From: an uncultured Fibrobacterota bacterium
GTDB lineage: Bacteria > Fibrobacterota > Fibrobacteria > Fibrobacterales > Fibrobacteraceae
Direction of reading: 5' to 3'
Assembly: GCA_903876665.1 (NCBI GenBank)
Contig: CAIRAY010000122.1
Coordinates: forward strand, 1 to 64,000
DNA: 64,000 bases
The translations under genes were made by a program, and so were the position numbers. Below are positions 2,467-23,665 of this stretch, piece by piece. Below the pieces are notes generated by a model. That model did no database searches, was not told the DNA's origin, and saw nothing but the letters and a program-made list of their open reading frames with translations. The first letter of the stretch is position 1, and every line of letters starts with the position of its first letter.

Positions 2467-3078
2467 TCAATGGCCGCTGGGTTTGATGATCAGGCTTTGG
2501 TATTGTTCGAGCAAACGATCCGCCAGAGTGGCAGGTTCTCCAAGCAGGCGCAGGGCCAGCGCAGCTGCTTCCAATGTGGATAGTTTGTCTGCACGGACTT
2601 GATTTCGCAAAGACGGATGGGCAGGGTTGAGACTAACCCGGTTGAGGCGAAGTAACCAGGAATTGCGCCACCAAAGGGTTTTTGCTTGTTTCCAAGAACC
2701 ATCCAAAATAATGATACCCTTCAAGGGTGCCGCATCCACCTTTTCTTTGCCTTTGCGAAAAATCTCCAAAGGCTTCCCGCCTTCGTTTCCGGCCTTCAAA
2801 TGCAACACACCCCAATCTCCGGGCTGTTCGTTTTCACCCAAGACCGCACGATGGTTTTGCCACGACAAACCCACCACCAGTGCAGATTCAGCCAACGACA
2901 TGGTCAGAAGCTTGGCGGAATTGAACTGCTTCAGTTGCTCCTGGGGATGCTGTAAAACCACCACCTTGGTATGATTCTTCAGCACCTCAATTTTATCGCA
3001 GATGCATTGCTCTTTACGGCGCAGGCAGTTTGAGCAGGCAAGGCTCTTGGGAATTCGCTGGTCTTGGTGTTCCATCAT
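2467..3078 (-). CDS. tapT: DTW-domain tRNA-uridine aminocarboxypropyltransferase (TapT-like)
   Basis: Family members transfer the 3-amino-3-carboxypropyl group of SAM to a tRNA uridine (acp3U). The N-terminus has a four-cysteine cluster (CSNCLRRKEQCIC), followed by LQHPQE and the DTW-family signature DGSWKQAK with Asp126 and Trp129, then the conserved LSTLEAAALAL helix. The 203-aa length suits the family. Starts further upstream (to 3126) would add a hydrophobic stretch not expected for this soluble enzyme. ATG 3078 has no Shine-Dalgarno sequence but has TACCTT six bases before it and TTGCGG 17 bases further up, which favours a leaderless transcript. It converges with the cyclase gene. Confidence 0.85.
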   Translation of the reverse strand: MMEHQDQRIPKSLACSNCLRRKEQCICDKIEVLKNHTKVVVLQHPQEQLKQFNSAKLLTMSLAESALVVGLSWQNHRAVLGENEQPGDWGVLHLKAGNEGGKPLEIFRKGKEKVDAAPLKGIIILDGSWKQAKTLWWRNSWLLRLNRVSLNPAHPSLRNQVRADKLSTLEAAALALRLLGEPATLADRLLEQYQSLIIKPSGH

Positions 3079-3084
3079 GTTCCA

Positions 3085-3113
3085 AAGGTAGTAGAATATC
3101 CAGGCGACCGCAA
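3085..3113 (-). promoter_or_regulatory. Promoter of tapT, leaderless type
   Basis: On the minus strand TTGCGG (3113-3108), a 17-base spacer and TACCTT (3090-3085) end six bases before ATG 3078. Transcription would start at or next to the start codon. Confidence 0.5.
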
Positions 3114-3316
3114 TTGCCCAAATCACCTTACAGAATCGACCCGGCGAGATGGGATTGGCTATTCCTTCACATAGCCTAAATACTTTCCACTATGAACAGG
3201 AGGCACTCACCCTATTTACAACATTATTGAAATATTGTACGAACTAACCGTCTTGCAAGATCACTTACGTATTCATCAAAGATGATAAATCACCGCTCAG
3301 CTGTATGCACCTGTTT

Positions 3317-6706: not shown

Positions 6707-7089
6707 TCCTTGAATACCTGCACCACAATGTCGTCCTCGTTTCCGCAGGATTTATCAGGGCCACAGCTTCGGAGGCAAAGCCAGCCCTTGACTTCGTCAC
6801 CCCGGTAAGGAGTCCCAAAAACATCAACTCCAGCGGGCTTCCCGGAAGACAGGTTGAAGTTTTGGGTCAGCCAGGACGAGACATCTTCTGGCAAGCGCGG
6901 ATTTTCGCCTTCAAGAACCTGATTGGTGAGATGGGCCTGCAAGGGGCTCAGGAAGCTGTTCATTTGCACCAGGGTTTCGGCCTTGGGCATCATTTTTTTC
7001 ATTCCCGCAATCCGCGAGACAATCGCATCGGACTGTTTGTAAATCAGAAGTCCCACCAGGCCTAAACCGACCACCCGACCCAGGCCCAT
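6700..7089 (-). CDS. Membrane-anchored protein with pseudopilin-like C-terminus
   Basis: A 129-residue protein starting MGLGRVVGLG with one N-terminal hydrophobic helix. Its C-terminus reads DVFGTPYRG...CGPDKSCGNEDDIV, resembling the calcium-loop end of major pseudopilins (GspG type: DPWGxPY...GxDGxxGGxxxDADI). The prepilin peptidase motif (G-FTLIE) is missing, so it is not a standard pilin. Two cysteines in the C-terminal loop may form a disulfide. The start is fixed by a TAATG overlap with the upstream cyclic-nucleotide-binding protein gene, implying coupled translation and a shared job. Fold similarity is an inference from motifs. Confidence 0.5.
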   Translation of the reverse strand: MGLGRVVGLGLVGLLIYKQSDAIVSRIAGMKKMMPKAETLVQMNSFLSPLQAHLTNQVLEGENPRLPEDVSSWLTQNFNLSSGKPAGVDVFGTPYRGDEVKGWLCLRSCGPDKSCGNEDDIVVQVFKDQ

Positions 7090-8825
7090 TAGAAGGCCCT
7101 CGCGCGCTGGTTCGCTAGGTCGGCAAGGACCTGCAAAAGGCCCGCCTGCATGACTTCGCCTTGCAACCATTCCGCTTCCCAGCGCCAGCAAAGGCAGTCC
7201 TCCTCGGCGGTGACCGTCGCCTTGCGGCTCCCGGTGGCCAGAAAGGCCATTTCACCGATGACAGAATCCGGACCAAGAGTTGCAAGCACTTTGCCTGTCT
7301 TTTCTATCCGCAATTTCCCCTTGACCAGAAGCGCCATCCAACGTTCGGGATCGCCCTCGTGAATGACCACCTCTCCAGCCACAAAATGACGTGGCATACC
7401 ATGGGCGAGCCAATGCTCCTTATTGGCATGGGTCATTCCCGTTAAAACGGAACACCGGTCAAAGGCCTGCGCAACGAGCACAAAATCCTTGAGACGGGCA
7501 CGAGCACTTTCGGAGAGAACCTCCGCTTCTTTTGCATCCAAACTCGCAGACACCACATCCTGGGTGGTCAGTACATCGGCCGTCCGGGGCTTCCCTTCCA
7601 AAAGCGCGATTTCTCCCACCGCACTTCCATCACGCACCGTAGCCCAATGAACCACATCGCCATTGGAATTGCGCCCCAAAACTTGCGCAGCTCCCGATTC
7701 AATCCAATGAAAAGTCCGATCCAACTCCCCATAGCGAATTAAAAAGGACCCTGGAGAAATGCGTCTCCAGACCCAAGGCAGATCGCCGAGCTCGGGCACA
7801 TGGAGAATCATGGCACAATGGGTCTTCCAAGCCTGGGCCATTTCGGGAGATGGACTAAAAGTGACCACCTGACCCTTTCCGCGAAGACGCAAGGCATTGC
7901 GGAAAATATTGGCCAAAACCCACAAGGTCCACAACACCCAAATTGCCTGAAGCACATTAAGGCTCATGGTCCAAAGAATAGACGTGAACCCACTTAGGGG
8001 AACCAAATCCGAGAGGAATTCAAGCGCCGCAGTAACTCCATAAGCCCACACAAAGGTGGAAAGGCCTCCGAGTGCCACGATCCAGCCACCCTTGGAAACG
8101 ATGGCCTGCCCTAAAGGGAGAAACCTTGCTGCGATGGCTAGGCGTAGAGTTCCTGGCCAATCTTCCGAATGGCTGATTCTTGAAAACGCCACACTGACTG
8201 GGCCGTGAATCAAGGGGCACGCCCGAACCGTGAAAACTAAAAACGAGGACAACAAAACCCCGGCAGAAACCCAACCGGGCAACCAGCCAGAGAGCGCAAG
8301 CAATGCAGTCGAAACCGGAATCAGCATGGATGCGACAACTGGAGTCGTTTGATCCACAACGGCCCAGGCAGCGGATTCCACCTTAGGACCAAAAGCTGAA
8401 ATGCGGAGAATGGGAGTGGTACATTTGAGCGTTGCCGTGAGGAGCATTGCATCCAAAGCTTCGTGGACCCAAATGGTGGCGAAGAACATTCCCACGAAAA
8501 CCCACCACGAGAACAGACCATCGCCCAAGGGAACCCAGGCGGAGGCGCCATGAACAGCAAGGCCGAACACCGAAAAGCCAGACACGCAAATAGCTAGGAG
8601 CAATTGAATCCAGCCCGAGATTCCAGGCACCTGCACGCCCCAGCCCAAAGCGGAACGGACAGTATGAGGATCGCCCGCCTCGGCTCCCGAAGAAAGCCTG
8701 AGCTGCAAACCCAGAGGAACCCCTTCTGATTCGGTCCAGGGTAAAGTCAAAAGCCAACGCGAACGGTCGGACTTGCGAGTCGCGACCCAGCGTCGGCTAG
8801 ATATCCATTGTAAATTTTCAGCCAT
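7089..8825 (-). CDS. Membrane protein with degenerate M50-like core and two cyclic-nucleotide-binding domains
   Basis: A 578-residue protein. Residues about 70-320 carry some six hydrophobic segments. One contains HEALD (His121, Glu122, Asp125), which looks like the HExxH zinc motif of site-2 protease (M50) membranes with the second His lost; a later CPLIHGP (about 202) sits where such proteins have NPxxDG. The C-terminal half has two cNMP-binding domains with phosphate-binding cassettes: GEIALLEGKPRTA and GEMAFLATGSRKA. Both keep the Gly-Glu and Arg needed to bind cyclic nucleotide. No Shine-Dalgarno sequence is seen; TACCTT ends six bases before ATG 8825. The likely role is a cAMP-responsive membrane sensor or pseudoprotease, with the pseudopilin-like protein as partner. 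The M50 link is tentative; the cNMP domains are firm. Confidence 0.75.
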   Translation of the reverse strand: MAENLQWISSRRWVATRKSDRSRWLLTLPWTESEGVPLGLQLRLSSGAEAGDPHTVRSALGWGVQVPGISGWIQLLLAICVSGFSVFGLAVHGASAWVPLGDGLFSWWVFVGMFFATIWVHEALDAMLLTATLKCTTPILRISAFGPKVESAAWAVVDQTTPVVASMLIPVSTALLALSGWLPGWVSAGVLLSSFLVFTVRACPLIHGPVSVAFSRISHSEDWPGTLRLAIAARFLPLGQAIVSKGGWIVALGGLSTFVWAYGVTAALEFLSDLVPLSGFTSILWTMSLNVLQAIWVLWTLWVLANIFRNALRLRGKGQVVTFSPSPEMAQAWKTHCAMILHVPELGDLPWVWRRISPGSFLIRYGELDRTFHWIESGAAQVLGRNSNGDVVHWATVRDGSAVGEIALLEGKPRTADVLTTQDVVSASLDAKEAEVLSESARARLKDFVLVAQAFDRCSVLTGMTHANKEHWLAHGMPRHFVAGEVVIHEGDPERWMALLVKGKLRIEKTGKVLATLGPDSVIGEMAFLATGSRKATVTAEEDCLCWRWEAEWLQGEVMQAGLLQVLADLANQRARAF

Positions 8826-9224: not shown

Positions 9225-10532
9225 TCAGATATTCGTCGATGCCACCGGCAATGATTTTTCCAAGCGAAACGCATCGGCAATACCCAATTCCTCCAGCTGA
9301 TTCCTGGCCAAATCGGCAACCAGGAGTACGGTCTTCCCTGGAGGCATTTGCTTGCGGATTTGCAACAAGGCGCTCACCACTACCTCGGGCAAGGTCTGTT
9401 TGAAATTCCTCAAATCATAGACCACATTGCCTGGACCTGCCTTCAATTTGGTGAAGGAATTGTTTATGCCGTCAACAAGACGAAGAGCGTTATCCTGAGG
9501 ATAAATCACCGCAACTGCAAATTCACCTTTCACATAATTAAAAGGCATGTTGTCGGACTTGTCTAAATTCCGGATTTCTTCCAATAATTTCTTTTGCGCA
9601 TCACTAATGGTTACCGGCATAAAGGGCATGAGTTCCAGATAGAGATCACCACGACCCGTGCCCCGGTACCTGGGGAAGCCTCGCCCCGGCAAAAGGATTT
9701 TTTGTTCCGTCTGCGAACAGGGAGGCACTTCGAAGGTCGCGTCTTCTCCATCCAAATGCGGGAAGGAATAGCGGCCCCCCAAAATCATCATGAAAAAATC
9801 CACCGGCACTTCCCGGGTAAGATCCGCCCCATCACGCTCGTAGCCTTTGGGGAATTCATCTTCAAAGCCGATGACCAGGTTTCCACTGGGGCCGCCAAAA
9901 ACGCCCGCATGGCCTTGCCCCGCACGCTCAATGAAATTTCCCTTTCCTACACCCTTGGGAATTTCGATGCGAACCAATTCTTCCACTTCTTTCCGCGCCA
10001 GACCATTGCAACTGGAACATAAACTTGGACTCGCTCCGCCCGGGGTTCCTTGTCCGTGGCAGGCCGGGCAGACAATCGAGCGCTTGAATTTGATTTTCCG
10101 AGAGCCACCGGCGATGACTTCCTGGGGCGTAACCTTCAGGCTGATGACAATGTCGTGCCCACGACGCGAAGCCTGTTCCGTACTCCCTTCGGGCGTAAAA
10201 TTGAAATCTCCATGCCCTAAATTTTCGAAGAATTTCCCCAGAGCCTCACCCAAATTCATGGACTTGGCAAAATCGGTACTGAATCCCCTGGGGGCTCCTG
10301 GAGCCATTCCCGGAGCGGGCTTGGGAGCCAACAAAGATTGATCATATTGCTGGCGAAGGACTGGATCGCGTAAAGTTTCGTAAGCCTTGGTCACTTCCGT
10401 AAACTGAGGCCCGGTGTCCTTGTCAGGGTTTTTGTCCGGATGCAGCTGGATGGCAAGCTTGCGATAGGCCGTTTTGATTTGGCCATCGTCAACCGAAGCG
10501 CCTACCCCCAATAATTCATAATAAGTTGCCAT
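9225..10532 (-). CDS. DnaJ-type co-chaperone fused to a C-terminal STAS-like domain
   Basis: The N-terminal J-domain (residues about 3-65) has the HPD motif (LHPDKNPD) needed to stimulate DnaK. A Gly/Pro/Phe-rich linker and DnaJ C-terminal peptide-binding domains follow. The zinc-finger region is reduced: one CPAC and one CSSC instead of four CxxCxGxG repeats, so at most one zinc site. After about residue 325 comes a roughly 100-aa segment (VVYDLRNFKQTLPEVVVSAL...VLLVADLARNQLEELGI) with the strand-helix pattern of STAS/anti-sigma-antagonist domains. This fusion is not a standard architecture. GTG 10535 is possible but ATG 10532 is preferred. It is the last gene of the giant-protein operon and overlaps or abuts the TPR/HEAT gene. 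Confidence 0.8.
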   Translation of the reverse strand: MATYYELLGVGASVDDGQIKTAYRKLAIQLHPDKNPDKDTGPQFTEVTKAYETLRDPVLRQQYDQSLLAPKPAPGMAPGAPRGFSTDFAKSMNLGEALGKFFENLGHGDFNFTPEGSTEQASRRGHDIVISLKVTPQEVIAGGSRKIKFKRSIVCPACHGQGTPGGASPSLCSSCNGLARKEVEELVRIEIPKGVGKGNFIERAGQGHAGVFGGPSGNLVIGFEDEFPKGYERDGADLTREVPVDFFMMILGGRYSFPHLDGEDATFEVPPCSQTEQKILLPGRGFPRYRGTGRGDLYLELMPFMPVTISDAQKKLLEEIRNLDKSDNMPFNYVKGEFAVAVIYPQDNALRLVDGINNSFTKLKAGPGNVVYDLRNFKQTLPEVVVSALLQIRKQMPPGKTVLLVADLARNQLEELGIADAFRLEKSLPVASTNI

Positions 10533-10534
10533 CA

Positions 10535-11866
10535 CTAATTCTCAAGGGACTCTATCAGTTCAACGAGGTGCAATTTTTCTTCATCCGACATGGCAAAACT
10601 CGCCTTCTGCTGAATCTTTCTTGCGGACGTCAATAAATTGTGGGTAATGATTTCATCGGATTTGTCGATAGATGGGCTCTTTAATATTTCAAAGGCTTCG
10701 CGGGTGTTGATCTCGCCCAAGGACCAAATTGCCGAAGCCGCCATGCGCTTGGAACCCGATTCCACCATATTCCCCAAGGTCTTGAGAGCAAGGTCCGGGT
10801 AATATTTGAAAAGCACAAAAGCGGTGTTGGCGCGAACACGGTTACTGGAATCATCCAGAAGAACCTTCAGTTTTTCGAGCTTGGCGATGTTTCCCGGAGA
10901 GGTGGGCGCCGCCGCAATTTCTGCGGCCACTTTCTCAACCGCATCTGCTCTTTCCTTGTCATCATGGGACTCCAGCTTGTTCTCTGCACTGGAGACCACC
11001 TGGGCGTCTGTGGATGCTTGTTGTCCTGGTGTCGATCCACCTGGCCCCGCAAGGAGCAACTGAGGTGCACCTCCATTCTGACCGTGCATGGCCGATGTTG
11101 CGGCAGTGAGAAGGAGTTGCTGAATAACCTCTTGATTCTGTTGCTGGAATTTTTGGCTGGATTTGAGGGAGGAACGAACCACCACCACAATAATCAGCAC
11201 CACAATCAGCACCAGGCCTGCCACAATACCCGAAACAATCAGAATGGTGTTCTGCGAGGAGGCGGCTCCTTCTTGGGCGGAGTTCTTCAGCATGTCCACC
11301 ATGCGTTGCTGTTCAACCGCCCGGAGGGAATCTGAATACCGTTGGGCCGCACCCGCATCTTTATTGCTCCGGTCCAACGAAGCCAAAAATCCCTGCAGCA
11401 TGGCTTCGCTTCCCTCGCCCTGGGCGGGAGCCTGAATCACGATCTGCTGGGGAGCGACAGGCTGAGGTGGCGGTGGTGGCGCGACGTACTCTTGCCGTGG
11501 TTGGACAACCACTTTGGGAGCCAAGGCCCGCTGGATTTTTGCCGCCAAGGCTTTTCCCTTAGCATTTTCAGGATCATAGGTAAATAACTGGTCCAGTTGC
11601 TCCTGTGCCATTTGGGCTTCGCCCTTGGCAAAGTATTGCTCCGCCCGATTGTAATAACAGAGCGCCAGCAATTTATTGGCCTGGGCATTGCCCGGATTCA
11701 CCTGCAGGACTTGTTCCAAATATTGAATGGCTCCAGAAAAGTCCTTGACCACATAAGCCTTCATCGCCTTATTGGTGTAGACTGTTTCCAGATTGTCGGA
11801 CCCTTGGGCCACAAGGGGCGCACTCGCCAACAGAACACATAGAATCAGAAGCAAAAAGCGCCTCAT
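10535..11866 (-). CDS. TPR / single-TM / HEAT-repeat membrane protein
   Basis: A 443-residue protein with a signal peptide (cleavage near LVAQG). Two to three TPR-like repeats (residues about 25-110) would lie in the periplasm. A Pro-rich stretch, one transmembrane helix (about 205-230: ILIVSGIVAGLVLIVVLII) and a Gln-rich segment follow. A cytoplasmic C-terminal part contains HEAT-like helical pairs (RVRANTAFVLFKYY, KRMAASAIWSLGEI). This topology links periplasm to cytoplasm. It overlaps the upstream PorV-like gene by four bases (ATGA) and meets the DnaJ-STAS gene at its stop. I infer a scaffold that couples the outer-membrane partner to the cytoplasmic chaperone-like protein. Confidence 0.7.
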   Translation of the reverse strand: MRRFLLLILCVLLASAPLVAQGSDNLETVYTNKAMKAYVVKDFSGAIQYLEQVLQVNPGNAQANKLLALCYYNRAEQYFAKGEAQMAQEQLDQLFTYDPENAKGKALAAKIQRALAPKVVVQPRQEYVAPPPPPQPVAPQQIVIQAPAQGEGSEAMLQGFLASLDRSNKDAGAAQRYSDSLRAVEQQRMVDMLKNSAQEGAASSQNTILIVSGIVAGLVLIVVLIIVVVVRSSLKSSQKFQQQNQEVIQQLLLTAATSAMHGQNGGAPQLLLAGPGGSTPGQQASTDAQVVSSAENKLESHDDKERADAVEKVAAEIAAAPTSPGNIAKLEKLKVLLDDSSNRVRANTAFVLFKYYPDLALKTLGNMVESGSKRMAASAIWSLGEINTREAFEILKSPSIDKSDEIITHNLLTSARKIQQKASFAMSDEEKLHLVELIESLEN

Positions 11867-14145
11867 TGCATAACCTCCTTCATTTCTTTCAGCATCTTGT
11901 AGGCACTGGAAGCGGATTTATTGTCTGGATTGCGCAACAGCAATCCGTTCAGTTTCTTTTCGGCACTGGGCAAATCACCCGATTCGATCAGCTTGTATAT
12001 GTCCAGAACTTCCTGTTCTGCCTCAACCCGAAGTTCCAGTTTTCTAGACTCTTCGGTTTCCAGCGCTGTTCCCTTCAAGAACTCGATGGCCTGACGAGCC
12101 TCGTCAATCAAGGTTGGCTTTCCTTCGGCCTCAAAAGTTGTAAGCTTGTTGCTTGCCTGTTGCATGGCTGCCTTTACCAGGTCTCTGCGGAGATCGAGCA
12201 AATTCTTGTCGTCGGCACGGACCCGAAGCGCACTGTCCAGCAAGCTTGCACAGGCTTTGTTTTCTCCCTTGTTGAAGAGGCGCAATGCTTCCTGGAATTG
12301 ATCCTCGGCAGCATACTGTTTGCGCTTTTCGCCAATTTCAGTTTGCAGAGCCAAGGCATATTCATTCTGAGGCTCCTGTTGCAAAGCCTTGGAAACCTCG
12401 ACCTCAGCGGCCTTCCAGTCACCGGCTTTCAACAATTTGCGGGCTTGTAAAATACGATCTGAAACATCCAGTTTAAGCATCTTCCCTAATTGCTCGGTGT
12501 TTGCATTGCCACCGTTGATTCCGACCTGCTTAAGGAAATAATCCCGCAAGGCTTCGGTTACCGTCTTGTAGAAGGTCTGGATGTCCGCATTTTCTGGTGT
12601 CAGGGCTAGCGCTTTCTGCAACAAGGTATGGGCTTTTTCCACGTCTTTCTTTTCATGGTATTCCGATGTGGCTTCATCGAACAGGGCCTTGGCCTGGCCG
12701 GCTTTGACCAACGGCAACATTTTCTTCTGAATGGCCAGTGCGCGCTCATCTTTGGGATTCTTGGCCAGAACCTCGTCAGCGAGGCGGGCGATTTCGTCCC
12801 ATTGGGTTGCCGGATCCAGGGAATCCGCCCGGGTCAGTTTCTGTTCCGATTCTTTGCCCATGATCAATCTGGATTGCATGGTGGGCAAATTTTCGTACTG
12901 GGGATTCAAATGGACCACCTGAACCACGATTTCCCCCGCTTGGGTAAATTCCTTCTGGGTAAGCAAGGAGTCGAATTCGGCTTGTAGAACCTTGACCTTG
13001 GTGGCATTCAAGCTCGCACGGACACGGGTGCGGAATTTGACTGCCGTACTGTCGCCCGGAACCTTTTTCAAGTAGGCCTCTACAAAATCCATGGCATCCG
13101 GGAAATTATCCACCAAGAAATTTGCGCGGGCATTTTCCAACAATCCGTTGGTGCGACGAATGTCCAAGGAATCCATTAGGTCCTTCTTCTCCTTGGGAAT
13201 AGGCTTTCCAATATCCCAATGCAAGCCAACAAAATGGCTTAAGCCCAAATCATTATTTTCATCCCGGTAGGGAATGCCGACCGCATAATCCACGCGGAAT
13301 CCACCTGCGGCAAGCCCAACACCGTAGGAGTGGTTCCGATCATTGATCCCTGCGCGCAAAAAGGCCCAATCAAAGGGCGTGAATTCCAGTCCGGCCTGGT
13401 AGCGGTTGGCTCGCTCGCGCATGGCACCTGAAAAATCAGTGACCGAAAATATGTTGGTTTTAGCAAGATCCAGGGAAAGGCGAATGCGCTTTTTCCAGAA
13501 GGTCGCGGCGGCGCCCCCTTTGAAAACGGTGGAATAGATGTCGGGCTCCTGGTCAAGGGTGATACTTGGGCCATAGATATTCACCAGGGAAGATCCCAGG
13601 GTGAGCCACTCAGTGGGGCGCAATTGGAAACCTGCGTCAAAGCCAAAACCCCAGCCCGAAAGGTCTGCCACACTTTGGGAGGCAAATTTGAAATCAAGAC
13701 CTACGCTGAATTTTTTGTCGTAGGCCCAAGCGTAGGTTAGCGCAATACTGCGTTCGCCCCCCTCATGGGTGCCCACATGCTCTCCATCCCAGGCATAATC
13801 CTGCACAGGATTATTGGGCGCAATGCTTACGAATGTTGCACCCACAGCACCTGCCCGATCAAATGGATAAACCATAGAAAGAACTGTGAAATTGAAGTCT
13901 TCGATCAGCCACATGCGGGAGAGTTCGATTTGCCGGTAATCGGACATGGCAATACCCGCCGGATTATGGTATAGCGCATCCGTACCTGCGTCGGTTACCG
14001 AGCCTCCGCCACGGGCATACGCCCCTGCACCAGGAGCCAGCTCGAATAAGTAATCACCAGCCTCCCCGTAACTTCCATTGGGGTCAATTTGAGCCTGTGC
14101 AAGCCCAGTCAGGGCAATTACCGATATGATGATTCGACTTAGCAT
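11863..14145 (-). CDS. PorV/PorQ-like outer-membrane barrel with C-terminal TPR region
   Basis: A 760-residue protein: signal peptide (cleavage after AQA), then about 300 residues of outer-membrane barrel. It opens with GAGAYARGGGSVTDAGTDAL and YHNPAGIA, the hallmark of the PorV/PorQ/UPF0164 family. In Bacteroidota PorV carries substrates of the type IX secretion system. From residue about 330 on it is helical with many TPR-like repeats. That extension is absent from PorV itself and would be periplasmic. AAGGGGC precedes the ATG. It lies nine bases after the giant Fn3-repeat gene, so the giant protein is the obvious client or partner. Family call good; role inferred. Confidence 0.75.
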   Translation of the reverse strand: MLSRIIISVIALTGLAQAQIDPNGSYGEAGDYLFELAPGAGAYARGGGSVTDAGTDALYHNPAGIAMSDYRQIELSRMWLIEDFNFTVLSMVYPFDRAGAVGATFVSIAPNNPVQDYAWDGEHVGTHEGGERSIALTYAWAYDKKFSVGLDFKFASQSVADLSGWGFGFDAGFQLRPTEWLTLGSSLVNIYGPSITLDQEPDIYSTVFKGGAAATFWKKRIRLSLDLAKTNIFSVTDFSGAMRERANRYQAGLEFTPFDWAFLRAGINDRNHSYGVGLAAGGFRVDYAVGIPYRDENNDLGLSHFVGLHWDIGKPIPKEKKDLMDSLDIRRTNGLLENARANFLVDNFPDAMDFVEAYLKKVPGDSTAVKFRTRVRASLNATKVKVLQAEFDSLLTQKEFTQAGEIVVQVVHLNPQYENLPTMQSRLIMGKESEQKLTRADSLDPATQWDEIARLADEVLAKNPKDERALAIQKKMLPLVKAGQAKALFDEATSEYHEKKDVEKAHTLLQKALALTPENADIQTFYKTVTEALRDYFLKQVGINGGNANTEQLGKMLKLDVSDRILQARKLLKAGDWKAAEVEVSKALQQEPQNEYALALQTEIGEKRKQYAAEDQFQEALRLFNKGENKACASLLDSALRVRADDKNLLDLRRDLVKAAMQQASNKLTTFEAEGKPTLIDEARQAIEFLKGTALETEESRKLELRVEAEQEVLDIYKLIESGDLPSAEKKLNGLLLRNPDNKSASSAYKMLKEMKEVMQ

Positions 14146-14154
14146 TTTTGCCCC

Positions 14155-17100
14155 TTACTTGTAAACTGCAATGATTTGCTTGACATGGTGAACGCCCCCG
14201 CTCTGTCTGGGTCGCGCGGTTACATGAACCACATAATATCCATTTCCGACATAGGCCCCCGCTTGGTTGCGCCCATCCCAGAGAACTTCGTTTTTGCTTC
14301 CGCCACTAGGCCTATCCAGCATGGATTTCTTCCACACTAGTCCTCCCGTGCGTGAATAAATGGCCACCTCGATCTGAGTGGTTTCGGTGATCAAATAGCT
14401 GATGCGAGCCTGGTTCAATGTGGCCTGAGGCGCACTCAGCTTGACGGGCGAAGGAAACACTAGGAAGTCGGAGAATGGAGCCGTAGAAGGATTAGCAGCC
14501 ATCAATGTGTAAATACTGAAATGAGTGGTTTCCATTGAAACCCAAGGCCGGGCCATGGTTTTTGCGGAAGCGGCCTTGCGGGCTAAGGACGGGCCCGTTA
14601 CAAACGAACTACCCTGTTGCCTTGCCCAACGGTTCTTCTTTTCGTCCAAGCGATAGAACGCAAGCATATTCACATCAAAGTCACTCTTGACCTTGGGCTT
14701 GCCTGGTGTGGCGAAATGGACAACCTGGGTCCCATCATCCAATGTATCCAGAAACTGTGGAATATAGCGCAACTCCACCGCGTGGCTGTCTGCGGGCTGT
14801 ACAATCTCGCCCGTGCGCAAATCCCGTGCCTCAATAATGAATTGTTTTTGCCCGAGCGGACGTGTGTTTCGATCGGCATGAACAAAATGGCCTGCAGTAT
14901 CTGCGGCTAGAACCTGCCTGCGGGTGGTGGTGTCGAGGTCTGCAATTTTCACCTTTGCCGTGTCGGGCATTTCCCGCAACACCAGACCCACTGTTCCGAC
15001 AAATGCACTATCGGGAATTACAATGGCCAAGGTGGAGTCTGCAGACTGGATCAGGGTTGAATTCTTTCCCACTAGCCAAGCGGCCGTGGTGTTCTTTGAG
15101 TCGGCCTGGGTTGAATCGCCCATAAAGAAGTGCATAGGAGCCGAGAAGGAACCCACCTTCCCATACAAAGTATCCAGGGCACGAATTTGCCACCAATGGA
15201 AGGTTCCGGAATGGAGGTTTTCTCCTAGTGCCGACTCCAGCTGGGCCACCGTAAGGCCCACATGGGAAAGGGAATCGATTTGTAGGGATTGGATCGGGAA
15301 TGTGTCTCGGACGGAGCTGTCGAGACTCATCATGGCAATTTCAAAGCGGACATTCTTGTATTGGGGTAGACTCCAAGCGAGAGTGTCCTGAGGGAACACC
15401 ACCGAGCCACTGCCATCCAAGACCAAAGGAATATCGAGTAACTTGCTGGTCCAGGTTCGAATCCCAAATGTTTTGGTGACGGACCATTCCGAAACCAGAC
15501 CACCCGTATCGGTTGCGGCGATGCGCCAGTAGTACAGTTTGCCCACCTGCAAATTGCTGAGCAGTTTGGGTAGCTGATCCAGACGAATCTGGGTGGTCGT
15601 AAGGCCCGCACTATCCGCGAGTAGCGCCCCGAATCCAGAGCTCCGGCTCACCTGCAACCGGTATTTCAGGGTGGCGATATCCAGGTTGTTGGGATCACGG
15701 CCTTGCCAATGCAGGGACTGGAAGGAATAGAGGAGACTGTCCTCTTGCAAGCCATTTACCAGTGGTGCAAAGGGCGCCTCGTTTCCACGATTGAAGATAA
15801 AGATACGCGGAGTCGAAAATGTGCCGATTTTCCCGTGGCTGTCCAACGCCCGCACCCGCCATACCAGGGTATCATTGCTTTCGAACCCGGACTGCCCTGG
15901 AAGGTCCATAATCAACTGGGAAGTATCGGAAACCGTATCACGGATAATGATCGTACCAAATAGATCAGAAGTATCCACTTCAACAATGTAGCGCAAAGAG
16001 TCCTGTGGACCCGCATCCACATCAATGGCAGGATGCCAAAGCAATGGCGTAGTCGGCAGGGCCTGGGCGCTGTCCCGGGGCGATATCACCTCTGGCGCAT
16101 CAGGTGCGGTGGAAACAAAACGATACTCGGCGGAATCCGCAAGGCTATGGAAATTCTCGGGATCGTAGGACCGGATGGACCAACGGAACACAGTACTGTC
16201 CTTCCATGATTTGAAGCCGGCAATTTGCCGCACATCCAATGAAGTCCCCGTTACTCCACGTTTCCAATATAGTGCCTGGGAGGAATCGGAAGGAGCCATG
16301 GCATTTGCAAGGCTAATCAGCACCTCGTACTTTAGCAAGGCACCATCAGCATCCGTTGCGGCGGACCAGGACAAAAGATTCGAAGGCTGGAGCGTCTGGG
16401 AATTCTTGGGAAAAATAATTCCGGGTTTGGTTGGCCGTTGATTGGCTGTGGAAAGAACAAAGCGCGTCGCGACGGTCCAGCCCGCGGTCTGATTGGCGAG
16501 GTCCAGGGCGCGGACACGGGCAAAGTAGGTGTTACCCGGAATAAGCCACTGGGCACCTGTCATTGCGGTGATTGCGACGGCGGTGTCCGCTTCACCCAGG
16601 GTTGCTGTTGCCTTGATGCCGGTGAAAAGAGAATCTAGAGCCACCTGCACCGTGTAAATGATGGAATCGCGCAAATCCGGTTGCCCACTGGGCTGCCAGG
16701 AAATCCCCTGCGTGTCCCAGAGAGAGTCTCCCGGATTGGGGCGAACCAGACTGGTCAAGGTCGGGAGATCATTTTCCGTGTTGGTCAACACCCGGAGCCA
16801 GGCTGTATAAGGAGAAGACGCAGCATGATTATCATTGGCGCGAATTCTCAGAAATAGGATTTTGTCATCTAAAATGCTGTCACCCGTACTCATCGTGTCC
16901 GCAATGATCAGTTGTGAAAATGTGTTGGATGTATCTGCTACCACAGAAACCATTCGCCGAGAAGATCCCGTGGTATCTTCAGTAGCCTCAAGCTGGTATT
17001 GCACCGGATTCCCGTCAGGGTCGGTCGATTTGAGCCAACGCAAATTCGAGGTGAGAGTCAGCATGGAATCGGCCATGGGCAAAATCCAAGCGGTGGCCGT

Positions 17101-20100
17101 GGGAGGTGAATTTGTATGTAGGAAAATTAGGGAGCGCACATCGGTGGTATCGGAGCGGGAACCATGATTATCTACCGCCCACACACGCCAGTAGTAGGTG
17201 GAATCATCCTGGAAATTTGCATAATTCTGCAGGGTACTCACCAGAACAGAATCACCCAAAACCCCTACTGTGCTACTCATTATGGCATTAAAGACCGCGT
17301 CGCGGGCAAGCTCAACGGTATAGGTCCAGGAGTCCGGAGTTCTTCCCATGGCGTCCGCATCCAGCGAAGAAAAACGCAAATACATGGACGAGGTGACCAC
17401 GCTACCAGAAGACGGACTCAGACTGGAAGGCATGGAGGGCTTTTCGTTCAGGTTGTTGAAATAAAAGAAAGAATCTGGGCTAGTGAAGGCCGAAAGCAAA
17501 CCGGCTTTATCCTTGCTTTGGACTTCCCAATAGTATTTCCCATTTTCCCTTAAATTTTCGGAACCAGCATAATCTTGCAACCGAGCTTTGGCTTTGGTGA
17601 GTCCATTCAATGCGATTAAAGGAAAGGCAAAGTTTGCATCCGCAGATACACGCAGATTGTAGGTCAAAGTATCCCGTGGATCCGAGTCTAGGCCTGTCCA
17701 CCCAAGGGAATCGACCAGCGCACGTTCGGTGCCATTCGCGATATTCAATGGCAATGGAATGGAGGGGGATTCATTGGCTTGATTCACCACAAAGCTATCG
17801 ACCACGCTTAAGGTGGAATCCCCAAACTGATCCCGAGCCCAGACGCGCCAATATTGGATGCTGTTATCCGCAATGAAAAGGCCTTGACCAGAAAAACTAA
17901 AGCCTGAGGTCACAGTGTTGAAGCTCGATTTTTCTGTGAACACACTATTATTCGCCAGCTCCACCGAATAGGATGTGGGAGTTCCGCCGGTTACCGCCAA
18001 ATCGGGCCAATCCAGATTGGGTTGCAAATTTGTAAGCGTGCTATTGGCCAGAGGCGATTCGTTGTTTGAACCCAAGTCAACAGTGGCGAGTGCTACGGTG
18101 TTCAGCTTAAGCGCACGCCACGTGGAATAGGCGGAACCGAAACCGGTATTATCCACAGCACGGATGCGGAAAAACAGCCGGAGATTGTCAAAGCTCGCAA
18201 CAGTTGTACTACCCGTTGAATTCAAGGCGATCAAAGCCGAAAGGGTTGCCGATGAGCCAGTCAATGAAGCCGTCAATTGCCGCGTCAGGGAACTGGTGTC
18301 CGATCCGGCCTCGATTTGGTAGGTGATGGTGTTGCCAACATCGGGATCCGTGGAGGCTGTCCATTGAAGAGTTGACCCAGCCCGATAGATAGAATCCGTG
18401 GGTATGCCCGAAAATGCAGTGACGGTCGGTGCCGAGTTTGTGTATTGGTAAACAAAGGTTCTGGCTCCGCTAAATCCAGAAGTGGCACCATGATTGTCCC
18501 TGGCCGCAACTCGCCAATAATAGGTGGTGCCGTTTAACAGTGTACCTGAAGAGCTCAATCCACTAAGAAGCACCCCGGAAGCCACTCCAGAAGTGGTACT
18601 CACAATGGAAGTAAATCCCGCATTTAAAGATATTTCGATGTTATAGGTCATTATGTCTGGAGTCAACCCCAAACTATCCGGATCCTTCGCCACAAAGGAA
18701 AATAGGTCGCTTTGTGTGACAATGGCGCCCTGCGCCGGTAAAGAAGGAACCGGGGTTGCGGGCGCATCATTGGTGGGATTAAACACAAAATAGTGTGTTG
18801 CGCTCGAGTAGGGGGAACAAACGGAAAACACATCGCAAGCACGAATTTTCCAATAGTACTTTCCATCATCCACTAAAGAACCCGAGCCAGTCAAATCAGC
18901 AATACGCATTTTCGAAAGCGAGAGACCCACCTGGTCGATTTCAGGAGAATTGAAACCCACATCCTCATCCACCTGAATTTCATAAGTCAATACGGCATGA
19001 GGATCAGGATCAGTGGCGGACCAACCCAAACTATCGCTCAAAATGCGCTCGGTTCCATCCGCCACATTCAACGAAGCCGATAGGACCGGTGCATCATTGG
19101 TCAAATTCACCAGTAGGCTATCCATCGCACTAACCGTGGAATCCCCAAACTGGTCATGAGCCCAGACCCGCCAATATTGCATACTATTATCCGAATAGGT
19201 GATTCCTTGCGAGCCCAGACTGAGCGTGGAGTTTGCAATGCTAACCCGGGTGGGCGCACTAAACCCAACCGTTTCGGAAAGCTCCAGCGTATAGGAATTG
19301 GGAGATCCGCCCGAAGGATTCAGGTCATCCCAATTGAGCGTTGGCTGCAACGTGGTGATGGTTGCATTGTTCTGGGGAGAGGTCGTGCCAGAGCTTAGGT
19401 CCACCGTCGCCAGGGCAACAGTATTGAATTTCACCCGACGCCAGGCAGAGAAATTGGATGCAAAACCAGTATTATCCACCGCGCGGATACGCACAAAGTA
19501 ACGCTGGTTGTCAAAACTCGATGCGGTGGTGCTACCCGAGGTATTGTCCACAATCAAGTTTTGTAGGGAAACAGATTTATCGGTGCGGGTTTCTTTCAGC
19601 TCCCGGGTTGCAGACAATGTATCTGTTTCCGCCTCAATGATATAGCTGACCACATTTCCCACATCGGGATCCGTGGATTCGTTCCATTGCAGGGTTGAGG
19701 TCAAACGGTAGATGGAGTCCGCAGGCACTCCGATAAAAAGGGTTGAGGTCGGTGGCGAATTGGTGCTTTGGTAAAGGAAGGAGCGGCCAGCCGTAGGACT
19801 GGAAGACGCCCCATGCGGGTCACGGGCAGCCACGCGCCAGTAATAGGTGTTTCCGTTGATCAAATTTGCAGCATTGTCCAGCTGACCCACAATGATTCCG
19901 CTAACCGTTCCCGTGGTTGTGCTGATGATGGAGGTGAACCCGGCATTCTGGGAAACCTCGACTGTGAAAGTAGGAACGTCGGGGGAAAGTCCTTGATTAT
20001 CTGGATCAACGGAGCTAAAGGAAAATGCATCGGTTGAAGTGAGGGTGGCGGCATCCGCCGGGGAAGCGATGGTCGGCGTTCCGGGAGCATTATTGATGGG

Positions 20101-23100
20101 ATTGAAAATGAAGTAGTGGGTCGCAATGGAATAGGGTGAACAGGCTGCGTGACTGTCGCAGGCACGGACCTTCCAATAGTATTTGCCATTGTCCACCAAG
20201 GCACCCGAGCCCGTCAGATCTGCGATGCGCACTTTGGAAAGACTGGAGGCCAAAATGGATATTTCGGGTGATCCAAAGCCACCATCGTCATCCACTTGAA
20301 TATCAAAGGTAATGGGGTCTGCGGGATCCGGATCCGTCGAGTTCCAACCCAAACTATCGGAAAGAATGCGCTCGGTACCATCAGCGATATTTAAAGAAGC
20401 AGGCACCGTGGGCGTTTCGTTCGCTTGGTTAATATGCATGCTATCGATGACGCTTGCGGTGGAATCGCCAAACTGGTCGTGAGCCCAAACACGCCAATAG
20501 TAAGTGGTATTGTCGGTTAGAGTTACGCTTTGAGTGGCAAGGTTTATGGTAGACACCGCAACACTTTTTCGTGTAGGGGAGGTGAAGGAAATGTTGGTGG
20601 AGAGGTCCACCGTATAGGAACTTGGAACACCACCCGATGCAATTAAATCATCCCAATTCAGTGTAGGTTGCAAAGAGGTGACCGTAGTGTTGTTCAAGGG
20701 GCTTGTTGTTCCCGAGGCTAAATCTACCGTAGCTAAATCCACTGTATTGAATTTGACGCGACGCCATGCTGAAAACGCAGAGGTCAGGCCGGAATTATCC
20801 ATGGAGCGCACACGTACAAAGTATCGCTGATTATCGAAACTCGATGCGACGGTGCTGCCTGTGCTGTTGGCTGCGATTAGCGCAGAAATGGTTGCGGAGG
20901 TTCCCGTGCGTGATACGGTCAGTTCCCGCGTTCCCGTTGTGGTGTCGGTTTCGGCTTCAATGACATAGCTTACCGTATTGTCCAAATCGGCGTCAGTAGA
21001 CAGGGTCCACTCGAGACTTGAGGTCAAACCATAAATGGAGTCCGAAGGAACATTGGCGAGAGTTGTGGCCGTGGGAGCTGTATTGCTAAGCTGAAAAAGG
21101 AACGAACGCCCAGCACAGGGACTTGAGCTCAAGCCATGCGGGTCACGGGCGGTGGCACGCCAATAGTAGGTATTGCCATTAACCAGACTGCCGAAATTAT
21201 TCAGAGCACTCAACAATACCCCAGATGATTTACCGATAGAAGTGCTGATTACCGCTGTAAAACCCGCATTCTGGGATATCTCTACAGTAAAGGTTGGCAC
21301 GTCTGGAGTCAAGCCCTGCTGATCCGCATCTGTAGAAGTAAAGGTTAGCTCATCACTAGGCACCACCGTTGTTGCATTAGCGGGCAAACTCAAAACAGGT
21401 GTGGTTGGTGCATCGTTGGTGGGGTTATAAAAGAAATTATTGGTTGCCACGGAAAAGGGTGAATAGGCACCCAAAGCATCTTCAGCGCGCACCTTCCAAT
21501 AATATATTCCATCGTCCACCAAAGCTCCAAATCCAGTCAAACCCGAGAGAGTCACTGTATTTGAAGCAATGCCAGTCATGGATATTTCTGGAGATGAAAA
21601 ATCCGAATTATTATCCACCATCAAATCATAGCTCAAGGATTCATTGGGGTCCGGATCGAAAGCCGTCCAAACTAGATTGTCGGCTGCAACACGTTCCGTG
21701 CCCGAAGGGACATCAATGGAGCTAATCGTTGGATCTTGAGCAAGTGCATTCGTATAGAGTATTTGGGAATTCGACAGAGTGGAGTCGCCATGACTATCCT
21801 TGGCGTACACCCGCCAATAGTAGGTCGAATTATCCACTAATCCATCGCCAACTTGCACGGCGTATGTCGTCCCCGAGCCCACAACCTTATTGATTAGAGG
21901 AGATCCAAATGCCGGATCATCATCGAGCTGCAAGCGGTAGCTTAAACTTGCATCCTCAGCATCCACATCCGCGGACACCTCCCAGGAGAGAGAGGGAAGT
22001 ACCGTCGTTTGCACAGACTGGTGCACAGGCAAATTCAGCGAAAATGCATCAGGGATGTCGTTGACTACAAGACTAACAGCCTCAAGGTATGGCGTGGCGA
22101 TTCCCGCCTGAGAATATAGCAGAGCTCGATAAAGGAAACTACCCCCTCCCAAAGAGGTGCCGTTTGCATGAATATCAATTGCGGAACTGGTTTGGGCGTA
22201 GGCGCAAGTGGAACTCGCCCATTGCACACCATTGAACCAAAGCCAACTTGTACCCCCATCCTTACTCACACAAAAGCGGATTCCTGTTCCCGATGCTTCT
22301 GTAGTGGTTGCGCCAAAACTGATGAAGCGATCATAGAGTGGTACGGTGGCGTTAGGGTATACATAAGGGCTCAACGCAGAAAAGCGCGTTTGCTCAGATT
22401 GAATGGTTTGGGTTGGCTCATTCGCCACATAGCTTCGAACACGTACAAACTTCCAAAAGGCAGCGGTAACCTGTGTATATACAGCATCATCGTAACGCTT
22501 TCCAAGTGCAATAACTTCGTTTAATATTCCGTTGGGGTGAGCATAGGTTACTGCATTACGAACATAAGAAAGTGTCAGCAAATTCTGGGTCGTAACAATC
22601 ATTTGCGTGCTATTGGGAGCCACGAGTTTCAAGGAGTGCCAGTTGTTATCGGTATGATTGACGCCAAGAGAGGTAAATGCCGCATTATTTCTGTAATAGT
22701 CGTTACCATTTAGCACCAATATCCCAAAGCCATTCGTGGTGGCATTCCAGAACCCACCAACCATATAGCCATTGGTTGGCGCTCCGACCACCGCCGGGGA
22801 ATTCAAAAACTCGGATTCGTACACGAGGGGGTAAGTGAAGGCTTTCAGGCTCTTCAAACGAGCCTTGCTGCTATCCATCTTGAGCATGCCGCCGGCGACC
22901 GTAAAGGCCGAAGCCACCTGAGTTACATCCCATATACTGGTATTAATGGAAGACCCTTCGAAGCTATCATAAAACTGAAATACGCGATTTCCATCCTGTG
23001 GAGGTGCTACAGACTCATTGGAATTGCCGTAATAAAGGAAGTAATTGGAATCTGCCTGCCCCGCAGCAATTGCCTTTCCTAGAGCAAACCAAATCTTAAC

Positions 23101-23562
23101 GTTGTTGTCCTTGGGGTAGGAACCACCACCCAGGGGCTCAAGGACCACATCCATGCCCACCCTTCCCACATCAGAAACCCAGCTAACACCATCAAAACGT
23201 TCATAGCGGTTATTCGTGGAATTCCAGTAGGCCAAGCGCAAATCCTTTCCATCATTAAGGAGCTTCCCATCATTCACCATTACATAAAAATTCTTATTGG
23301 TTGAAACCGTAAAATTTGCGGCTACCGCATCGGTGCCCGCGCTCACCTTGATGCGGGTGCGGTACAAATAATTGTTGTCAAACCATACCGGCGATGGAGC
23401 CTCGATCAAGTGCGCATTCCCACCGGATACCTCCACATTACTCGGATCGCTGGCAGAATAATCCCCCGAGGTATTAAAATCCCAGGTTTTTGTCGTAGCC
23501 AAGGCTTGCCCAAATACCACGAGGCACAGGAGACCCAAAAGGCAATAATTTCTATTCATCAT
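14155..23562 (-). CDS. Giant secreted multi-Fn3-like repeat surface protein
   Basis: About 3,135 residues. A signal peptide (cleavage after QALA) is followed by a DUF2341-like segment (KIWFALGKAI...YFLYYGNSN) and a LamG-like region to about residue 500. Then come some twenty Fn3/Ig-like domains of about 105-110 aa, each ending in a YYWRVRA-type strand and a (N)APxxP-type boundary. Sixteen of them form four super-repeats; the later ones are more divergent. The C-terminus ends in a FlgD-like/sorting-type module (FPSPVKLSAP..., WDGRNQAGAYVGNGYYVVHV). GTG 23565, ATG 23562 and ATG 23559 are all possible after AGAGGAA; the spacing suits 23562 or 23559. It heads a four-gene operon with the PorV-like, TPR/HEAT and DnaJ-STAS genes. 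Likely a surface adhesin or fibre; no catalytic domain seen. Confidence 0.8.
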   Translation of the reverse strand: MMNRNYCLLGLLCLVVFGQALATTKTWDFNTSGDYSASDPSNVEVSGGNAHLIEAPSPVWFDNNYLYRTRIKVSAGTDAVAANFTVSTNKNFYVMVNDGKLLNDGKDLRLAYWNSTNNRYERFDGVSWVSDVGRVGMDVVLEPLGGGSYPKDNNVKIWFALGKAIAAGQADSNYFLYYGNSNESVAPPQDGNRVFQFYDSFEGSSINTSIWDVTQVASAFTVAGGMLKMDSSKARLKSLKAFTYPLVYESEFLNSPAVVGAPTNGYMVGGFWNATTNGFGILVLNGNDYYRNNAAFTSLGVNHTDNNWHSLKLVAPNSTQMIVTTQNLLTLSYVRNAVTYAHPNGILNEVIALGKRYDDAVYTQVTAAFWKFVRVRSYVANEPTQTIQSEQTRFSALSPYVYPNATVPLYDRFISFGATTTEASGTGIRFCVSKDGGTSWLWFNGVQWASSTCAYAQTSSAIDIHANGTSLGGGSFLYRALLYSQAGIATPYLEAVSLVVNDIPDAFSLNLPVHQSVQTTVLPSLSWEVSADVDAEDASLSYRLQLDDDPAFGSPLINKVVGSGTTYAVQVGDGLVDNSTYYWRVYAKDSHGDSTLSNSQILYTNALAQDPTISSIDVPSGTERVAADNLVWTAFDPDPNESLSYDLMVDNNSDFSSPEISMTGIASNTVTLSGLTGFGALVDDGIYYWKVRAEDALGAYSPFSVATNNFFYNPTNDAPTTPVLSLPANATTVVPSDELTFTSTDADQQGLTPDVPTFTVEISQNAGFTAVISTSIGKSSGVLLSALNNFGSLVNGNTYYWRATARDPHGLSSSPCAGRSFLFQLSNTAPTATTLANVPSDSIYGLTSSLEWTLSTDADLDNTVSYVIEAETDTTTGTRELTVSRTGTSATISALIAANSTGSTVASSFDNQRYFVRVRSMDNSGLTSAFSAWRRVKFNTVDLATVDLASGTTSPLNNTTVTSLQPTLNWDDLIASGGVPSSYTVDLSTNISFTSPTRKSVAVSTINLATQSVTLTDNTTYYWRVWAHDQFGDSTASVIDSMHINQANETPTVPASLNIADGTERILSDSLGWNSTDPDPADPITFDIQVDDDGGFGSPEISILASSLSKVRIADLTGSGALVDNGKYYWKVRACDSHAACSPYSIATHYFIFNPINNAPGTPTIASPADAATLTSTDAFSFSSVDPDNQGLSPDVPTFTVEVSQNAGFTSIISTTTGTVSGIIVGQLDNAANLINGNTYYWRVAARDPHGASSSPTAGRSFLYQSTNSPPTSTLFIGVPADSIYRLTSTLQWNESTDPDVGNVVSYIIEAETDTLSATRELKETRTDKSVSLQNLIVDNTSGSTTASSFDNQRYFVRIRAVDNTGFASNFSAWRRVKFNTVALATVDLSSGTTSPQNNATITTLQPTLNWDDLNPSGGSPNSYTLELSETVGFSAPTRVSIANSTLSLGSQGITYSDNSMQYWRVWAHDQFGDSTVSAMDSLLVNLTNDAPVLSASLNVADGTERILSDSLGWSATDPDPHAVLTYEIQVDEDVGFNSPEIDQVGLSLSKMRIADLTGSGSLVDDGKYYWKIRACDVFSVCSPYSSATHYFVFNPTNDAPATPVPSLPAQGAIVTQSDLFSFVAKDPDSLGLTPDIMTYNIEISLNAGFTSIVSTTSGVASGVLLSGLSSSGTLLNGTTYYWRVAARDNHGATSGFSGARTFVYQYTNSAPTVTAFSGIPTDSIYRAGSTLQWTASTDPDVGNTITYQIEAGSDTSSLTRQLTASLTGSSATLSALIALNSTGSTTVASFDNLRLFFRIRAVDNTGFGSAYSTWRALKLNTVALATVDLGSNNESPLANSTLTNLQPNLDWPDLAVTGGTPTSYSVELANNSVFTEKSSFNTVTSGFSFSGQGLFIADNSIQYWRVWARDQFGDSTLSVVDSFVVNQANESPSIPLPLNIANGTERALVDSLGWTGLDSDPRDTLTYNLRVSADANFAFPLIALNGLTKAKARLQDYAGSENLRENGKYYWEVQSKDKAGLLSAFTSPDSFFYFNNLNEKPSMPSSLSPSSGSVVTSSMYLRFSSLDADAMGRTPDSWTYTVELARDAVFNAIMSSTVGVLGDSVLVSTLQNYANFQDDSTYYWRVWAVDNHGSRSDTTDVRSLIFLHTNSPPTATAWILPMADSMLTLTSNLRWLKSTDPDGNPVQYQLEATEDTTGSSRRMVSVVADTSNTFSQLIIADTMSTGDSILDDKILFLRIRANDNHAASSPYTAWLRVLTNTENDLPTLTSLVRPNPGDSLWDTQGISWQPSGQPDLRDSIIYTVQVALDSLFTGIKATATLGEADTAVAITAMTGAQWLIPGNTYFARVRALDLANQTAGWTVATRFVLSTANQRPTKPGIIFPKNSQTLQPSNLLSWSAATDADGALLKYEVLISLANAMAPSDSSQALYWKRGVTGTSLDVRQIAGFKSWKDSTVFRWSIRSYDPENFHSLADSAEYRFVSTAPDAPEVISPRDSAQALPTTPLLWHPAIDVDAGPQDSLRYIVEVDTSDLFGTIIIRDTVSDTSQLIMDLPGQSGFESNDTLVWRVRALDSHGKIGTFSTPRIFIFNRGNEAPFAPLVNGLQEDSLLYSFQSLHWQGRDPNNLDIATLKYRLQVSRSSGFGALLADSAGLTTTQIRLDQLPKLLSNLQVGKLYYWRIAATDTGGLVSEWSVTKTFGIRTWTSKLLDIPLVLDGSGSVVFPQDTLAWSLPQYKNVRFEIAMMSLDSSVRDTFPIQSLQIDSLSHVGLTVAQLESALGENLHSGTFHWWQIRALDTLYGKVGSFSAPMHFFMGDSTQADSKNTTAAWLVGKNSTLIQSADSTLAIVIPDSAFVGTVGLVLREMPDTAKVKIADLDTTTRRQVLAADTAGHFVHADRNTRPLGQKQFIIEARDLRTGEIVQPADSHAVELRYIPQFLDTLDDGTQVVHFATPGKPKVKSDFDVNMLAFYRLDEKKNRWARQQGSSFVTGPSLARKAASAKTMARPWVSMETTHFSIYTLMAANPSTAPFSDFLVFPSPVKLSAPQATLNQARISYLITETTQIEVAIYSRTGGLVWKKSMLDRPSGGSKNEVLWDGRNQAGAYVGNGYYVVHVTARPRQSGGVHHVKQIIAVYK
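16436..21740 (-). repeat. Four tandem ~1.32-kb super-repeats inside the giant gene
   Basis: Unit boundaries fall near 21740, 20415, 19095, 17770 and 16436, a spacing of 1,320-1,335 bases (about 440 residues). Each unit encodes four Fn3-like domains in the same order, beginning near GTERxxxDSLGW. Units 1-3 are very alike (shared blocks such as FNTVxLATVDL and YYWRVWAHDQFGDST); unit 4 is clearly more diverged. Confidence 0.75.
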
Positions 23563-23644
23563 CACTTCCTCTGCACATGACTAAGCGCCGGGTACCGGCA
23601 AGTACCCAGCCATCCAGTCGATCGGCAACGTTGACATTGTACAT
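23552..23644 (-). CDS. Possible 30-aa upstream ORF coupled to the giant gene
   Basis: ATG 23644 has a perfect AAGGAG six bases upstream. It opens a 30-codon frame (start MYNVNVADRL) whose stop overlaps the giant gene's first codons, an arrangement that would couple translation. A competing reading of the same bases as a promoter (TACAAT at 23641-23636) would place transcription start after this ATG, so both cannot hold together. Confidence 0.3.
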   Translation of the reverse strand: MYNVNVADRLDGWVLAGTRRLVMCRGSDDE

Positions 23645-23665
23645 TCGTAACTCCTTTTTTGTCAA
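23636..23665 (-). promoter_or_regulatory. Candidate promoter of the giant-protein operon
   Basis: On the minus strand TTGACA (23665-23660), an 18-base spacer and TACAAT (23641-23636). The leader downstream contains GGGTAC-N6-GTACCC (23590-23607), a perfect inverted repeat that could be an operator or a leader hairpin. Confidence 0.45.

Follow-up and report, generated by a model that had tools for sequence, protein, structure and literature searches.

A 64,000-nucleotide stretch of contig CAIRAY010000122.1 of an uncultured Fibrobacterota bacterium (assembly GCA_903876665.1), hereafter called the window, carries on its minus strand a block of four genes (positions 9225-23565). In the order of transcription these encode a giant immunoglobulin (Ig)/Fn3 surface protein (gene 4), a PorV-family barrel protein with a tail of tetratricopeptide repeats (TPR; gene 3), a protein combining TPRs, one transmembrane (TM) segment and HEAT repeats (TPR-TM-HEAT; gene 2) and a J-protein (gene 1). 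The same four-gene order recurs in a very distant relative, a genome of a different family, and the arrangement is therefore beyond chance. In the reading that we favour, and to which we give even chances, the operon would serve to display and anchor one giant adhesin, held by a dedicated carrier and tethered across the envelope to an Hsp70 co-chaperone in the cytoplasm.

A four-gene block conserved between two families

Our analysis of the junctions bore out the initial annotation of this DNA, which had described four overlapping or abutting genes with spacings of 9 bp, -4 bp and about 0. All four open reading frames were confirmed and each abuts the next: 9 bp separate the giant gene from the PorV-TPR gene, the PorV-TPR and TPR-TM-HEAT genes overlap by 4 bp (ATGA), and the junction of the TPR-TM-HEAT and J-protein genes (TAGTGATG) is a 1-bp overlap with the GTG start or a gap of 2 bp with the likely ATG. 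Domain calls are based on Pfam and NCBIfam searches, each at curated thresholds. These searches back every domain except STAS in the window J-protein; the PorV barrel and the sorting domain of the giant miss the curated thresholds.

The second genome (G022; that of the window is G000) is the Chitinivibrionales metagenome-assembled genome PL23a_bin.29, where contig JANQEN010000263.1 carries all four genes with order and orientation unchanged. Their products are a J-protein of 588 aa, a TPR-TM-HEAT protein of 441 aa, a PorV-TPR protein of 782 aa and a giant of 2,546 aa. Identity between the two genomes is 25-32% in the three accessory proteins and 48% in the canonical DnaJ, and the giant matches its orthologue at 820 bits. 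When the window and the 51-kb G022 contig were compared over their full lengths, only the four-gene block proved collinear, four further matches being non-syntenic. The initial annotation had named adjacency in this genome alone as the finding that would speak against a joint system; G022 shares the order.

Searches with the single products of genes 2 and 3 gave clear full-length matches in G022 alone, the weaker matches being general HEAT, TPR or PorV proteins, and a profile search of 168 genomes of the phylum found full-length gene 2 only in G000 and G022. A scan of 84,980 species' genomes by two short patterns returned the G022 record alone among the matches listed, which leaves room for members in other phyla, and no copy of the block was found in the viral contigs searched. 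The collinearity with G022 and the restriction of full-length gene 2 to two genomes indicate that the block is real, that it is either old or acquired by transfer, and that it is rare within the phylum.

Conservation of the four-gene order between non-syntenic flanks in a different family counts for one joint module. Pairs of a cargo and its carrier are known to be self-sufficient (PMC9143113, PMC12618676), and it could be argued that carrier and cargo (genes 3 and 4) alone cooperate while genes 1 and 2 are operon passengers. We regard this as very unlikely, given that families with different flanks have kept the linkage of all four genes, and of those four only, at 25-32% identity.

The giant surface protein and its probable export

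Pfam and NCBIfam identify Ig_Rha78A_N/fn3, DUF2341 and FlgD_ig domains in the giant. Its N-terminus contains a hydrophobic stretch (residues 7-25) that hydropathy alone identifies as a signal peptide, in agreement with the Sec entry required of cargo of the type IX secretion system (T9SS). DUF2341 and a variable N-terminal region reach to about residue 505, and are followed by a stalk of 21 contiguous Ig/Fn3 units of ~105 aa (residues 512-2820; 15 units in the G022 giant), a conserved module and a T9SS-like C-terminal domain (CTD) at ~3030-3136. The N-terminal regions of the two giants showed no significant similarity when compared, and the stalk, the pre-CTD module and the CTD are conserved, which is the pattern expected for an adhesin. 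When the last ~320 residues were used as query against ten genomes, only the two giants matched over the whole length, other proteins matching the C-terminal part alone.

The best match of the C-terminal domain in a PDB profile search was the C-terminus of PorU (6za2, E 0.0015), and the PorU model also picked up this domain in the genome search. In addition, against a profile that we made of 20 T9SS CTDs from G000, G022 and a third genome (G001), the C-terminal tile outscored all other tiles of each giant. The initial description of a secreted client of about 3,135 aa with a sorting-like C-terminus thus holds, for a protein of 3,135-3,136 aa with a signal peptide and a T9SS-CTD-like end, weak as this last match is.

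The T9SS translocon protein SprA was detected in all 168 genomes of the phylum, that of the window genome (on contig C93) scoring 645 bits against a cut-off of 200. The same genome encodes a PorU homologue (346 bits, below the cut-off of 420), PorV-family proteins and other T9SS CTDs. The GldM/PorM model TIGR03517 matched nothing in G000, G001 or G022, but the controls gave no match either, so that this search is uninformative. Use of the T9SS by Fibrobacter has been proposed from proteomics (PMC6851124). Since the genome has SprA, a PorU homologue and other T9SS CTDs, and since the CTD of the giant is T9SS-like, export by this system is the economical reading; the giant most likely belongs among the T9SS cargos, its dedicated carrier being unusually extended. 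The same observations, together with the PorV-family proteins of this genome, leave the machine proposed initially without support for being "self-contained".

A probable PorV-family carrier with a periplasmic TPR tail

The product of gene 3 consists of a PorV-family barrel (residues ~30-315) and a periplasmic TPR tail of ~440 aa (320-760). It scores 81 bits against the PorV_fam model NF033709 (cut-off 90), which the G022 orthologue passes with 117 bits. AlphaFold modelled the helical TPR tail confidently, with a predicted local distance difference test score (pLDDT) of mostly ~80-90. In a Foldseek search with the model, in which the pLDDT of the barrel is low, the best match was 8gl6_F, a chain of a T9SS RemA-CTD complex, and further matches include TPR proteins and FadL-type barrels. 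A PDB sequence profile search with the PorV-TPR protein gave general TPR matches only. With its TPR domains, and a barrel just below the NF033709 cut-off, this is probably the outer-membrane PorV-like protein with a TPR tail that had been predicted.

The gene of the putative carrier lies directly downstream of that of its cargo, at 9 bp in the window and with a 4-bp overlap in G022. Other Fibrobacterota possess a second PorV-TPR family of ~780 aa, which in three genomes (G024, G050 and G060) is preceded by a protein with a FlgD-like C-terminus, whose PA14/fibro-slime character was read by eye from the sequence. This neighbourhood supports a role of PorV-TPR proteins as cargo carriers in the phylum.

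A conserved block of three genes was observed at L064:7661-17414, L066:361-10129 and L056:2002-11537, encoding a TPR protein of ~1,600 aa, a fibro-slime-type protein of 745-833 aa with a FlgD-like C-terminus and a PorV-TPR protein of ~780 aa; it is possibly a second cargo-carrier module. The window genome itself encodes two further PorV-family fusions (L132:5654-8542 on contig C15 and L133:6776-8983 on contig C158): one has a C-terminal beta-propeller-like region, and in the other a propeller repeat of the two-component-regulator type precedes the barrel part.

The TPR-TM-HEAT protein and the J-protein

The product of gene 2 has a signal peptide, TPRs, one TM segment (~210-228) and HEAT_2 repeats. 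Its net charge is -1 before and +3 after the TM segment, which fits an N-out/C-in topology with the TPRs outside and the HEAT repeats in the cytoplasm, as had been annotated for this inner-membrane protein. Among the closest relatives of its HEAT domain are proteins of three Fibrobacterota genomes (G002, G005 and G131) in which HEAT and STAS are fused in a single chain. These fusions point to a possible contact between the HEAT end of gene 2 and the STAS end of gene 1. Two of the three fusion genes adjoin pdxA and an MFS transporter gene.

The J-domain of gene 1 is intact (HPDKN; PF00226, 1.2e-20), and of the four CxxC zinc motifs the DnaJ C-terminal domain has retained two, as has a paralogue in the same genome; the G022 orthologue has all four. 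A canonical DnaJ of 386 aa is encoded elsewhere in the genome (contig C45), and we therefore rejected gene 1 as the housekeeping copy. The tail (~326-436) is a degenerate STAS-like region. An alignment of the window J-protein extends into the STAS region of the paralogue (5/500 and 8/500 shuffles scored as high), and the G022 orthologue carries two Pfam STAS domains. A STAS hidden Markov model (HMM) built from relatives did not separate the window tail from shuffles. Of the annotated cytoplasmic J-domain/STAS protein, the J-domain is intact and the STAS call is probably right, but it is weak in the window copy itself.

The paralogue (L105:8619-10178, contig C8) is a second DnaJ-type protein of 519 aa with a DnaJ C-terminal domain and a Pfam STAS domain. 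It has no Pfam J-domain, yet an HPD triplet is present near its N-terminus, and its gene adjoins an apparent oligopeptide ABC transporter operon.

STAS domains are typical of partner switching, and their best PDB matches here are anti-sigma-factor antagonists. The first STAS domain of the G022 J-protein retains a DSA motif. These features would suit envelope signalling, in which the PorV-TPR and TPR-TM-HEAT proteins sense the state of the surface protein and pass it on to the STAS-bearing J-protein, an analogue of partner switching that would alter gene expression or proteostasis. The window copy, however, has TLPEVVVSA in place of the DSA motif, and the block contains no kinase or phosphatase gene; we consider this explanation quite unlikely.

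The J-domain raises another explanation, an export-chaperone relay in which genes 1 and 2 serve only to prevent the giant from folding and to hand it to Sec, with J-protein and DnaK acting inside and the TPRs taking over outside, and in which no lasting tether is formed. An intact HPD motif, the presence of a cytoplasmic J-protein in one operon with a secreted client of ~3,100 aa, and the fact that the 2,546-aa giant of G022 likewise has its own J-protein all agree with such a relay. Such a relay would nevertheless need neither a STAS or HEAT module nor a carrier with a TPR tail of ~440 aa. We also know of no dedicated J-protein for SprB of Flavobacterium johnsoniae, which counts against it too. 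SprB, at 669 kDa, is exported by the T9SS (PMC9143113). On balance the relay appears unlikely.

A model for display and anchoring

The display and anchoring module that we favour builds on the observed gene order and its conservation, the domains, the presence of the T9SS, the CTD-likeness of the giant and the anatomy of its stalk. The giant would use Sec to cross the inner membrane and, by way of its C-terminal Ig domain, the SprA translocon to cross the outer one. The PorV-family barrel would collect it and hold it on the surface, like SprF for SprB, and the periplasmic TPR tail of the barrel would dock on the periplasmic TPRs of the TPR-TM-HEAT protein. On the cytoplasmic side the HEAT repeats may bind the J-protein at its STAS-like end, and the J-protein would bring DnaK there, leaving the adhesin tethered across the whole envelope. 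The purpose might be either to have Hsp70 available at the Sec entrance for the freshly synthesized client of ~3,100 aa or to report the state of the anchored adhesin. The carrier half of the model follows known T9SS logic (PMC9143113, PMC12618676, PMC12635249). TPR-TPR docking, HEAT-STAS binding and the recruitment of DnaK with its purpose are parts that we infer. A continuous linkage from adhesin through carrier barrel, periplasmic TPRs, TPR-TM-HEAT protein and HEAT-STAS contact to the J-protein is a tentative proposal, the odds being somewhat against it.

Several observations weigh against this model. The block is present in only two of the 168 genomes. The match of the giant to T9SS CTDs is weak and lies under the Pfam and NCBIfam curated cut-offs, and AlphaFold gave the barrel of the carrier low confidence. 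A Pfam search found no STAS match in the tail of the window J-protein, in line with its degeneracy, and the AlphaFold model of this protein (mean pLDDT 43) is unusable beyond the J-domain and gives no confirmation of a STAS fold. HEAT repeats without STAS score about as well against the gene-2 HEAT domain as the HEAT-STAS fusions do, and the HEAT-STAS link is therefore not exclusive. Finally, the proposed link to the cytoplasm is drawn from synteny and fusions rather than from direct interaction.

It is known that carriers of the T9SS connect to parts of the outer membrane or to parts bound to peptidoglycan; to our knowledge, a surface-to-Hsp70 linkage is unknown in the T9SS or other display systems. 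If the model is true, display of one surface protein would be mechanically or informationally tied to the cytoplasm, and STAS-bearing J-proteins and HEAT-STAS fusions would acquire a concrete function.

Feature coordinates and neighbouring genes

Positions of the features analysed are listed in Table 1. Across the whole region, sigma-70-like matches were no more numerous than in shuffles. A gene 400 bp downstream of the operon (window 7089-8825, minus strand) encodes a membrane protein that has two cyclic-nucleotide-binding domains and, within a TM region, an HExxD motif, and that resembles a site-2-protease type in degenerate form; the block in G022 has no adjoining counterpart.

Table 1. Coordinates of the four genes and associated features (window positions unless a locus is named).
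Feature	Position	Strand	Basis
Giant surface protein, 3,135-3,136 aa	14155..23565	-	Pfam/NCBIfam domains, hydropathy, unit count, G022 orthologue
C-terminal sorting-type Ig domain of the giant	14158..14520	-	PDB profile match to PorU C-terminus; T9SS CTD profile
PorV-family outer-membrane barrel with periplasmic TPR tail	11863..14145	-	NF033709, AlphaFold, Foldseek
Inner-membrane TPR-TM-HEAT protein	10535..11866	-	TPR, HEAT_2 domains; hydropathy; G022 orthologue
J-protein with degenerate STAS-like tail	9225..10535	-	DnaJ, DnaJ_C domains; G022 orthologue
Best sigma-70-like promoter match, TTGACA-18-TACAAT, 11/12	23636..23665	-	Upstream of giant; consensus match only
HEAT-STAS fusions, 411-429 aa, three Fibrobacterota genomes	L014:10716-11951; L015:3709-4998; L017:4794-6053		

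Comparison with known systems

The interpretation as an export or anchoring machine is upheld in so far as one operon with conserved synteny spans several compartments, but not as a self-contained one nor as one "not matching any system". Cargo with cognate shuttle pairs is established in Bacteroidota (PMC9143113, PMC12618676), where specific shuttles are encoded directly downstream of their substrates (PMC12618676), and SprB-SprF and PG1035-PorP are known examples of a cargo with a dedicated barrel (PMC9143113). One conserved operon that unites a TPR-tailed carrier of the PorV family with a TPR-TM-HEAT partner in the inner membrane and a J-protein bearing STAS appears undescribed, as far as the searched literature shows. 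No description of a J-STAS or PorV-TPR arrangement was found in the open-access literature, most subscription journals lying outside this search.

The closest parallel is SprB-SprF of F. johnsoniae, a type B T9SS cargo with a PorP-like carrier (PMC9143113, PMC12635249), in which a giant repetitive surface protein is likewise followed directly by the gene for a barrel of the PorV/PorP kind. SprF also has a periplasmic C-terminal part, which joins it to the gliding track (PMC12635249), but this C-tail is short, whereas the window carrier is of the PorV type with a ~440-aa TPR tail, and the window operon adds the TPR-TM-HEAT protein and the J-protein. In PG1035-PorP-PorE of Porphyromonas gingivalis (PMC9143113) a surface cargo is held by a barrel joined to a periplasmic anchor, which in the window has a candidate counterpart; PorE is a peptidoglycan-binding periplasmic lipoprotein of the outer membrane, whereas the candidate partner here is in the inner membrane. 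PorW/SprE (PMC8754138) is similarly a periplasmic TPR protein of the T9SS that bridges components, but PorW is a separate lipoprotein anchored in the outer membrane, whereas the window TPRs are fused to the barrel and to the inner-membrane protein. Finally, gene 1 shares the HPD J-domain and the DnaJ C-terminal domain with class I DnaJ (Hsp40) proteins, from which it differs by its STAS-like tail and by the loss of two of the four CxxC motifs, all of which are present in G022.

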